From Nannochloropsis oceanica (taxonomy: Eukaryota; Sar; Eustigmatophyceae; Eustigmatales; Monodopsidaceae), in assembly GCA_004519485.1 (NCBI GenBank), contig CP038106.1, forward strand, positions 1 through 64,000: DNA of 64,000 nucleotides, written 5' to 3'. The notes beneath the pieces were generated by a model, which worked only from the letters and a program-made list of their open reading frames with translations, did not search any database and was not told the DNA's origin. The position numbers and the translations under genes are program-made. Below are positions 33,429 through 42,524 of the stretch, piece by piece. The stretch's first letter is position 1. Every line of letters begins with the position of its first letter.

Positions 33429-36400
33429 CTAGAGGGCTGCCATCGTGTGCTTCATCAGGTTCTGCTCATCTTCGTGCCTCCTTCCCAAAACCATCGAACA
33501 GACGTCACTCGCGGGCAACCTCTTTCCAACCTGAAAACTCATTCCAAACTCCACCACCTCCTCCCACAATTTCCCCGACAGCCCCTCCCCCTCCCCCTCC
33601 TCGCCTCCTCCCTGCACCTCCTCATCCAAGGACCTCATCACCACCGCTGCCATACACATCTTTTTCAGCTCCAACAACTGATAGGCGTCGCTCCACTTTA
33701 AGATGTCCACACACGACCCTCGATCCACCAGCGCCCTCCGCAAGTACCCGCTACACAGGGCCACGAGCGCCGAGAGATCATAGCGGTGGGCGAGAAGGAG
33801 GAGGGGAAGGAGGACCTTGTCAACGGCCGCATTGGCATGCAACGTATCGGTGTAGATGTAGACAAGGAGGGCGCGGAGGACGGGAGGGGTCACATCGGCG
33901 AGGGTGATGATGGACTGTGTCGCCTCCCGCATGCCACTTCCCAGCATGGCCTCGAAGTGGGGGCAGCGTTTGGCCAGCAGCGACTTGTGCGCCCACACTA
34001 CCTCCCCACCCGCCTGCCCGCCCTCCTTCCCTTCCTCCACCTCCTCCACGCGCAACCCCACGGTGTGTCGAAACACCCCTCCCTCCCTCCCACCCTCCCG
34101 CCCTGCCCCCTCCTCGTCAAAAGCCAGGAGCTGGAGGAGGTCGACGGCGAGGGTGGAGGGGAGGATGACCACAGGCGGTTCCTGCGGTATGGCAACGATG
34201 GCCACATCGTCAGGGCGGGAGGGAACGACGACGATAATCCTGGAGGGGTCCGTGCGGTAGTCAAAGCCTACCCCCTCGCCTCTCTCCTTCACGTGTTCAA
34301 TAAAGTCCTCTGGGCTGTCGGGAACGTGGCCCTCGTCATGTGCGCCGGTCAATTTGGCGAAAGCTGCCTGATCCAGCCCCCCTCGCGCCTCCTCCCAGGC
34401 CGCCCTCCAGAGGCACGACCAGTCTTGATACGCCTGGAAGAAATCCACGGCGGCCTTGCCGCGGGAAAACGTCAACTCGTACAGGTGGGTGTCCTTCGGA
34501 CGCCTGTATGCGCAGGGAGGTAAAATGGGTGAAGGAGGGAGGGAAGGAGGGCGCCGAGGGGATGAGGATAGGATGAAGGAAGGAGGGACGGATGGCAAGA
34601 GGCGAGGTCAAGAGACTCGAAACCACGTACCTACTGCCTCCTCCGAAGATCAACAGCTTCCCATCCAGGCTTGCAACTCCTCCTCCTCCTCTTGCTCTCC
34701 CACTTCCTCCTCCCTCCCCGTCCTCGCCCCCCTCCAGAGACGGGCTCCAGACTGCGGTATGCCTACAGCGAGCGGATGGGTACTCGCGCTCTTTGGCAGC
34801 CGCTACCTCCCAATAGGGGGCCAAGGGAGACAAAGGGAGGGAGGAGGGGGAGAAAGCGAGGGGGAACTTTGCCCAATGGCAGACCAGGCCGGCGGCAAGA
34901 CTCATCGACTCAATCTGGAGAGATGGAGGGATTGTTATCGACTTGAAACGAAGCAACCCACAACTCGTTGATATGTCTCCGTCCCCCCTCTCTCCCCTTC
35001 CACCCTTTTTCCCTTCCTCCCTTCCTCCCTTCCTTCTCCCTTTCTCCCTTTCTCCCTCCTTCCTTCCCCTCATTCTCACCACTAAGATGTACAAGTCGTT
35101 GTAAGCCTGCTGCGTCGTCGCCCCATACATGTAACCGCCAAAGACAGCAATATGGCGCGAGTCCAGGACCGTCATCGTATGTTCGAACCTGGACAGGGGA
35201 TGAGGGAGGGAGGGACGGAGGGAGGGACGGAGGGACGGAGGGAGGGGGAGAGAGAGGAACGGGTGTCAGTTGAGGTCATCCGACTTTTTGACCTCTAAGC
35301 ATCTATCCTTTTCCGCCCATCTCCCTCTCCATCCCTCTCCACCTCCCTCCTTCCATCCTCCCACAGTACCGAGCCGGAGGTACCACGCTTCCTGTGAGGG
35401 TCACGCGCTCCCACACAATCTTCTTGCGCCGCAGCCCCGAGGAGGACGGGGAGGAAGGGAGGGAGGAGGGGGAGGAGGGGGAGGAGGGGCCGACCCGGGC
35501 GGAGCACACGTCAGTGCTGACCAACCTATCTCTGATCCCACCAAATACTAACATGCTTAGGAGGGAGCGAGGGAGGGTAGAAAGGATAATAGTTTAAAAC
35601 GAGGATGTACGCAAATAAAAATGGGCAAATCAGCCTCTATCGCCCACCTCCCCTCCTCTCCTTTCCTCTCGCCCTCCCTCCCTCCCTCCCATCGACCTAC
35701 CGATCTCCTCCCTCCGCCTCCGTCCCCGGCACCACCACCGCCCCATGAGATTCCCTCGGCTCCGGTAATTCTCCCTCCACCTCCGGTCGCGACCACATGA
35801 ACCGCCCTTCCTCCTTCCCGCCCTCGTTCTCCCTCCCGCCCTTGACAAGGTAGGAAAGGAGAACGATGTCGTTCATACTGTGGTAGTTCAGGGCGTTTCG
35901 GCCCCCGAACACGAACATCTCTGTGGCTACATACTCGTTGCCGTGCTTCACAGGGGGAGAGGGGGGAAGGAGGGAAGGAGGGAGAGGGGGAGGGACGATT
36001 AGAGGTACGCCATGGGATTCCAGCACCCCCTTTGTCATCTTCACCTTCCTCCCCTGTTTCCCTTTATCCCTCCACCCTTCCACCCCTCCCTCCCTCCACA
36101 TGCCTTCTTCTCCCCTCCAGGTAGATAGCGGGCTACCATCGTGTGGTTTGCTCTGGCCGGCAAGCCCATATCTGACGGAAACGTGTGATCTAAGGACACC
36201 CGCCCTCCCCCTTCCTCCTCCTCTTCCTCCTCCTCCTTTTTCCTTCTCTCCGTCTTGGGAAGGAGTCGCTCCCATTGTAGGTTGGAGAGGGACAGAAGGT
36301 ACGCAGGCTCCACGTAGGAGGTTGCCTCTGGATCAGTCCTGAGGGAGGGACGACAGGAGAGAGGAAGCGAGGGAGAAATGGGAGAGCTGTGGCTGAGATC

Positions 36401-42400: not shown

Positions 42401-42524
42401 TGGGCTTCTTCGGTTGCTCGCCTTGCTTCTTTTGCTCCGCTTGTTCGGCTTGGCTAGCCTGTCGTTGTCGGGCAGAAGGGAAGGGGGAGTCAGATAGCTC
42501 TATGCCGTGTACATGGAAAGACAT
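33429..42524 (-). CDS. WD40-BTB-Kelch-BTB multidomain protein (DHU1-like WD40)
   Basis: Exons 2-25 form one unbroken phase-consistent chain of 1704 codons: 42263-42215, 42159-41796, 41450-41324, 41197-41142, 41011-40916, 40781-40703, 40410-40352, 40246-40195, 39865-39751, 39641-39588, 39476-39368, 39250-38462, 38285-38180, 37960-37859, 37704-37562, 37470-37200, 37055-36744, 36601-36474, 36338-36137, 35945-35701, 35555-35370, 35188-35080, 34914-34631, 34503-33429. Exon 1 (Met at 42524) is not resolved; Met in exon 3 is the fallback. Residues of about 30-400 are WD40 repeats matching plant DWD/DHU1 proteins (RPRQFEYSPLVPGRLVFG, FATSSFDKNVKIWDMR with the DWD-type WDxR, FSPDDVHILSSAVDN). An acidic run is followed by BTB 1 (about 490-690), Kelch repeats (MFVFGGRNALNYHSMNDI, IAVFGGYMYG), then BTB 2 near 1480-1600 (VWAHKSLLAKRCPHFEAML). 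A ubiquitin-ligase adaptor role is inferred. Confidence 0.85.
40440..40545. repeat. AT-rich imperfect tandem repeat inside an intron
   Basis: Within the intron at 40411-40702 of the WD40-BTB-Kelch gene lies an AT island of alternating TA/CA. Two imperfect copies of a unit that starts GCATTA, carries TCGCGT and ends in an AT run can be aligned (about 40417-40480 and 40485-40540). A GC palindrome (GGCCAGCGCTGGC) follows at about 40557. It may be a small inserted element, but no clear terminal repeats were found. Confidence 0.5.
41022..41112 (+). repeat. GGGA/GGGT minisatellite in intron
   Basis: About 16-base units of three or four GGGA plus one GGGT repeat five or six times in an intron of the WD40-BTB-Kelch gene. 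The G-runs could form quadruplexes on the plus strand, which is the template strand for this gene. Confidence 0.85.
41571..41782 (+). repeat. (GA)n microsatellite in intron
   Basis: Roughly 95 bases of nearly pure GA from 41571, then GA interrupted by GGGA and GCGC units to 41782. It lies in the intron between exons 3 and 4 of the WD40-BTB-Kelch gene; on the sense strand it is a CT tract just after the donor region. Confidence 0.92.

Follow-up and report, generated by a model that had tools for sequence, protein, structure and literature searches.

The window studied here comprises the first 64,000 nucleotides of contig CP038106.1 of the alga Nannochloropsis oceanica (assembly GCA_004519485.1), and a gene predicted on its minus strand at 42145-33429 would encode a protein of 1693 residues that combines WD40, BTB and Kelch modules in one chain. 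From the N to the C terminus the predicted protein contains a WD40 domain with a DWD motif, a partly acidic linker, a weak BTB domain (BTB1), an acidic stretch, a six-repeat Kelch propeller and a strong BTB domain (BTB2). Judged from its sequence, this WD40-BTB1-Kelch-BTB2 protein is most likely a substrate adaptor of a CUL3 ubiquitin ligase, a reading to which we assign a probability of roughly 0.5. A Kelch protein with two BTB domains is already known (LZTR1) and BTB2 carries a phi-x-E pattern, which makes a CUL3 adaptor with both propellers binding substrates the economical reading. Unless stated otherwise, coordinates are window positions of features on the minus strand.

BTB2 (residues 1455-1596; 33723-34148, with the Pfam core at 34010-33738) matched PF00651 with 62.5 bits against a cut-off of 20.5, and with 63.1 bits in a genome scan. 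At E <= 0.01 it matched 42 distinct PDB sequences, the best being SPOP (3htm, 3.8e-9). Alignment to SPOP places a phi-x-E motif, M-R-E, at residues 1527-1529 (33924-33932) opposite the SPOP M-E-E, and a 3-box-like stretch at residues 1597-1628 (33627-33722) aligns with the SPOP sequence behind its BTB. In the KLHL3-CUL3 complex the contact includes the corresponding M-S-E, and changing its glutamate weakened binding to the point that a dissociation constant was no longer determinable (PMC3616122). The Kelch propeller, with six hydrophobic-GG repeats, extends over residues 849-1363 (exons 16-23; 34422-37019) and matched three Pfam models above their cut-offs: PF24681 (104.9 bits, cut-off 50), PF13415 (50.2 bits) and PF01344 (25.2 bits). 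An earlier annotation made from the DNA letters, hereafter the sequence-only reading, had called Kelch repeats here, and the PF24681 score bears it out. The GG positions assigned to the repeats (913, 977, 1075, 1148, 1222 and 1332) were selected from ten GG matches, and the attractin/LZTR1 propeller model reached 44.4 bits, below its cut-off of 50.

The gene was spliced by hand at GT-AG or GC-AG sites, and the phases were checked by script. The resulting model begins with an ATG at 42145, ends with a single stop at 33429, and has 23 coding exons totalling 5082 bases, with consistent phases and no internal stop. Exons 1-8 lie at 42145-41796, 41450-41324, 41197-41142, 41011-40916, 40781-40703, 40410-40352, 40246-40195 and 39865-39751; exons 9-16 at 39641-39588, 39476-39368, 39250-38462, 38285-38180, 37960-37859, 37704-37562, 37470-37200 and 37055-36744; and exons 17-23 at 36601-36474, 36338-36104, 35945-35701, 35555-35370, 35188-35080, 34914-34631 and 34503-33429. 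Of the 22 introns, 20 have GT-AG borders and two have GC-AG. Exon 18 could end at either of two donors, GC at 36103 or, 33 bases upstream and in frame, GT at 36136, with no effect on the domain order. The sequence-only reading had described a phase-consistent chain of 24 exons starting at 42524; the chain is indeed continuous and ends at 33429, but 23 exons were counted and the start codon lies at 42145. Its first exon is unsupported, although not disproved, because a TGA directly upstream of 42184 closes the WD40 frame and leaves 39 bases without a convincing acceptor. Among the 22 introns, 13 have a G-rich GGAGGGA-type run in their first 60 bases and 16 a C-rich CCTCCCT-type run in their last 70 bases; these complementary runs occur together in seven introns, a count made with no control set. 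Intron 1 contains a long CT-rich simple repeat (approximately 41558-41780).

The WD40 and BTB1 parts meet in exon 11 (38462-39250; 789 bases), within one open frame. This exon encodes the last 15-18 or so residues of the WD40 domain, a linker of about 123 residues and residues 508-629 of BTB1, the remainder of which is encoded by exons 12-14; the earlier placement of a WD40 and a BTB domain in the same exon is accordingly correct for parts of each, not for the whole domains. Translation of the linker shows a low-complexity, partly acidic tract at residues 385-469 (38941-39195). Exon 11 is open for 262 codons, with no stops in the joined frame and five and six in the other two. A codon score was trained on 2435 codons from three long genomic frames, two of cullin genes and one of a CPSF_A-family gene, and then applied to the three forward frames of seven of the 23 exons (1, 11, 15, 16, 18, 22 and 23); the frame of the model scored highest in all seven. 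For exon 11 the score per codon was 0.09 bits in the joined frame and -0.59 and -0.64 in the other two, and the joined frame led in each of nine sub-windows. Exons 1, 15 and 23 scored 0.15, 0.43 and 0.17, while two presumed intergenic stretches and five of the 22 introns scored -0.28 or lower in every frame. Past the end of the WD40 domain, the G+C fraction of exon 11 never fell below 0.47 in 60-base windows, whereas both neighbouring presumed intergenic stretches reach 0.27. The open frame, the lead in coding score across the join and the lack of an AT-rich stretch thus support the earlier proposal that the WD40 and BTB-Kelch-BTB parts form one polypeptide, which is the simplest reading of the predicted gene.

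It is also conceivable, although unlikely, that the hand-made model merged two overlapping or separately spliced genes, one for the WD40 part and one for BTB-Kelch-BTB. Such an arrangement would be in keeping with the published mean of 2.87 exons per gene in N. oceanica (PMC6610115) and could make use of an in-frame ATG at residue 415, past the WD40 end. Exon 11 contains an in-frame 84-base GT-AG pair (39123-39040), which means that it could be spliced in more than one way, and GCAAGG, the GC donor hexamer of intron 4, is also present in this exon. Yet none of the 17 GT donor hexamers tried, which included every GT donor of this gene, falls inside exon 11, nor does the exon contain a stretch as AT-rich as its neighbouring stretches. 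Two transcripts are not required, because the join sits in one exon, open for 262 codons, and the joined frame is best in all nine sub-windows. The 84-base segment may be an optional intron covering 28 linker residues, and splicing it out would leave the fusion intact. Neither AATAAA nor ATTAAA turned up when polyadenylation and TATA words were counted in four stretches, and these words were therefore uninformative.

BTB1, with a helical, 3-box-like tail assigned by eye, covers residues 508-724 (exons 11-14; 37627-38826) and is followed by an acidic stretch at residues 746-836 (37200-37563) that separates it from the Kelch repeats. It is probably a diverged BTB domain. When a 331-residue stretch was searched, BTB was the only Pfam match (15.8 bits, E 0.017), and the only PDB matches at E <= 10 were two KLHL11 sequences (E 1.3 and 1.8). 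Two BTB profiles were then built from this genome, one from three BTB domains including BTB2 and the other from two BTB domains without BTB2, and BTB1 was scored with its simple-sequence inserts masked. The masked BTB1 reached 21.2 bits with the three-BTB profile and 17.0 bits with the two-BTB profile, and in neither case did any of 5000 shuffled sequences reach the real score (best shuffles 8.2 and 8.0 bits). With the two-BTB profile, the half of BTB1 encoded by exons 12 to 14 carries 12.3 bits. A search of the genome with BTB1, in which 140 of 406 candidates were scored, gave 117 matches; four were its own exons, and most of the others overlap a Gly/Arg/Glu-rich stretch (approximately query 45-131). 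BTB2 appeared among these matches at E 0.015 and was given no weight. The two BTB domains of the sequence-only reading thus differ in standing, BTB2 being secure and BTB1 falling below the Pfam cut-off.

Several results weigh against the adaptor reading or the gene model on which it is built. The 23 exons far exceed the published genome mean cited above. Exons 16, 18 and 22 have codon scores below zero (-0.44, -0.01 and -0.22), and the joined frame of exon 11 is itself negative in two sub-windows (-0.43 at 39159-39070 and -0.31 at 38709-38620); with the presumed intergenic stretches and introns at -0.28 or lower, the codon score is a guide and not proof. Intron 5, well within the part that encodes WD40, drops to a G+C fraction of 0.28, much like the neighbouring stretches, and low G+C content alone therefore marks no gene border. 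For BTB1, the 15.8 bits lie under the Pfam cut-off of 20.5; exon 11 alone gave a BTB match of 13.1 bits, ranked after BSP_II, an acidic low-complexity match; the exon-11 half of the domain carries only 2.5 bits with the two-BTB profile; and BTB1 is missing from the nine matches of the genome BTB scan. No Pfam BACK domain was matched behind BTB1 or BTB2 at E <= 1. AlphaFold predictions run without an alignment were poor and were not used, with a mean predicted local distance difference test (pLDDT) score of 49.4 for the exon-11 part of BTB1 and 40.6 for exon 23. A fold search with the exon-11 model of BTB1 found no BTB among the 50 listed of 74 PDB matches at E <= 10; none of the 74 reached E <= 0.001, a result that is meaningless at that model confidence. 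Finally, no relative with the same domain order was found in the alga's own genome or in two scans of viral contigs, in which 0 of 31 pattern matches to the BTB2 part and 0 of 22 to the WD40 part were confirmed.

At the position expected for phi-x-E, BTB1 has M-A-D (residues 555-557) and so lacks the conserved glutamate. This difference from the M-R-E of BTB2 makes BTB2 the probable docking site for CUL3 and BTB1 its probable partner in the dimer. The general expectation from the sequence-only reading, that BTB-Kelch proteins serve as CUL3 adaptors, is therefore a fair one for BTB2, given its phi-x-E motif and the SPOP-like stretch behind it. In the mechanism we propose, BTB2 and the stretch behind it, with their SPOP- and KLHL-like sequence, would dock CUL3. 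The degenerate BTB1 would pair with BTB2, within or between chains, and shape the dimer, as one LZTR1 BTB may. The Kelch propeller would bind substrates or regulators, as might the WD40 propeller on its acidic tether. Alternatively, the protein could be a scaffold outside any ligase, in which the BTB domains only dimerize, the propellers bind partners and no cullin is held. The missing glutamate of BTB1 and the undetected BACK would suit such a scaffold, and some BTB proteins, such as KCTD16, do not bind CUL3 (PMC5664961); the M-R-E and SPOP-like sequence of BTB2 speak against it, and we regard it as quite improbable.

The WD40 beta-propeller (residues 10-384, exons 1-11; 39196-42118) matched PF00400 with 31.3 bits against a cut-off of 27, while more specific propeller models remained below their cut-offs. 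Among 27 Pfam families matched at E <= 1, 25 were listed, and 24 of these were WD40 or other propeller families, the remaining one being Cutinase. At E <= 0.1 the WD40 part matched 382 PDB sequences, and the 60 listed were named as WD40-type proteins, for example Prp17 and WDR5. At E <= 0.001 NCBIfam matched neither the WD40 part nor exon 23, and the alga's own genome yielded no standalone copy of the WD40 part (16 matches, the best outside the gene having E 0.003 and 20% identity). A motif scan located one DWD (WDxR) 16-mer in the protein, FATSSFDKNVKIWDMR, at residues 219-234 in exon 5 (40709-40756). The DWD rule calls for D/E at position 7, W/Y at 13, D/E at 14 and R/K at 16 (PMC6761389), and all four key residues are present (D225, W231, D232 and R234); the 16-mer also fits the stricter logo of PMC4327156. 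The WDxR signature reported by the sequence-only reading is thus present and complete.

From this motif and the BTB-Kelch parts the earlier work had suggested that one protein could bridge two cullin systems. The WD40 domain would then dock DDB1-CUL4 through its DWD motif and BTB2 would dock CUL3, so that the protein would link two ligases, or be a substrate of one and an adaptor of the other. This dual-cullin reading is distinctly unlikely in our estimation; the WD40 domain is presumably related to DHU1, in agreement with the sequence-only reading. For the bridge to hold, DDB1 would have to dock on the DWD motif of this protein. The motif does agree with the rule residue for residue, and DHU1 (AT4G34280), itself a DWD protein, is reported to bind DDB1 (PMC6761389) and also to sequester COP1 (PMC6591365). 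Ligases with more than one cullin have a precedent in CRL7-FBXW8 with CUL1 (PMC9507964). On the other hand, DWD motifs are common, being carried by 85 Arabidopsis proteins (PMC6761389), and for the animal protein SHKBP1, whose BTB binds CUL3, substrate binding is the role discussed for the WD40 (PMC5664961). WD40 proteins have also been reported in one study to bind the C-terminal portion of CUL3 (PMC4107866), so that WD40 next to CUL3 does not necessarily point to CUL4. Very improbable is the more specific form, a single-chain CUL3-CUL4 bridge whose long acidic tethers would allow the two ligases to work on the same substrate, bound by Kelch.

The cullins and DDB1 that either kind of adaptor would call upon are all encoded in the genome, as seen in scans covering 29,264,788 bases on 32 contigs. 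The best PDB match of the CUL3 homologue was Cullin-3 (669 bits; next kind Cullin-4A, 494), and the CUL4 homologue scored 747 bits against 439 for Cullin-3. A DDB1 homologue was located on contig 10, where one 61-residue exon stretch was compared and 28 of 29 matches were named DDB1. The genes first found by a CPSF_A scan were rejected as DDB1; presumably they are SF3B3- and CPSF1-like. A second gene of the RSE1/DDB1/CPSF type, besides one on contig 1, lies in one long frame on contig 7 (C7:851464-855783), and we take it to be a diverged SF3B3 relative. The CUL3 and CUL4 homologues are likewise encoded by one long open frame of 804 codons each, unlike the intron-rich gene studied here. The BTB scan gave at least nine matches at eight places, BTB2 of this gene included. 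The other seven places (Pfam, E <= 0.01) comprise one BTB-BACK-Kelch, one Kelch-BTB, two Ankyrin-BTB, one BTB-BACK and two BTB alone; in the open frames covered, a WD40 domain stood beside the BTB in none of the seven, the count not extending to whole intron-bearing genes.

In animals and plants, WD40, BTB and Kelch modules are mostly found on separate proteins. KCTD3 has a BTB and a WD40 domain in one chain, with the BTB ahead of the WD40 in both SHKBP1 and KCTD3, and IBtk has two BTB domains in one chain. LZTR1, an animal CUL3 adaptor, resembles the algal protein in that a single chain holds a six-blade Kelch propeller together with two BTB domains, Kelch standing before the last of them (PMC8154269). 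Its order is Kelch-BTB-BACK-BTB-BACK, however, whereas in the algal protein WD40 leads, one BTB precedes Kelch and Pfam detects no BACK; a Kelch propeller followed by two BTB-BACK pairs is thus not what was found. As in KLHL proteins (BTB-BACK-Kelch), BTB1 and its helical tail precede the Kelch repeats, but the leading WD40, the terminal BTB2, the weakness of BTB1 and the undetected BACK depart from a single N-terminal BTB followed by BACK and Kelch. SHKBP1 likewise joins BTB with WD40, and it binds CUL3 through its BTB (PMC5664961), but SHKBP1 and KCTD3 have a KCTD-type BTB and lack both Kelch and a second BTB. RhoBTB also has two BTB domains in one chain (PMC1257465), yet RhoBTB and IBtk differ from the algal protein in their other partner domains and in the tandem placement of their BTBs. 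DHU1 and other DWD/DCAF proteins share a WD40 domain with a complete DWD motif, but no BTB or Kelch part is named for DHU1 in the portions of the literature covered (PMC6591365, PMC6761389), and neither 'BTB' nor 'kelch' is present in the covered main text, tables and figures excluded, of a soybean survey of DWD proteins. In a eukaryote domain-pair survey, as covered here, the BTB partners named are Ankyrin, Kelch, BACK and NPH3, with WD40 among the F-box partners (PMC4327156); the WD40-BTB-Kelch-BTB order thus lies outside the pairs named. This four-part order was not found among the matches listed in the open-licence literature, although public proteomes may well contain relatives that share it. 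Smaller sets of these modules are known together (LZTR1, KLHL, SHKBP1), and it is their four-part combination that may be new.

Flanking the gene on the same strand are frames that resemble an aminotransferase downstream (29799-31211), which we take from their translations to belong to the class III family, and frames with GHSLGG upstream (44533-44983) that are lipase-like, a label likewise presumed from the translations.

Insofar as the protein is made as predicted, it would show an alga with few BTB genes building a multi-propeller adaptor by the joining of modules. The gene also offers a direct and cheap test of one adaptor holding two cullins.

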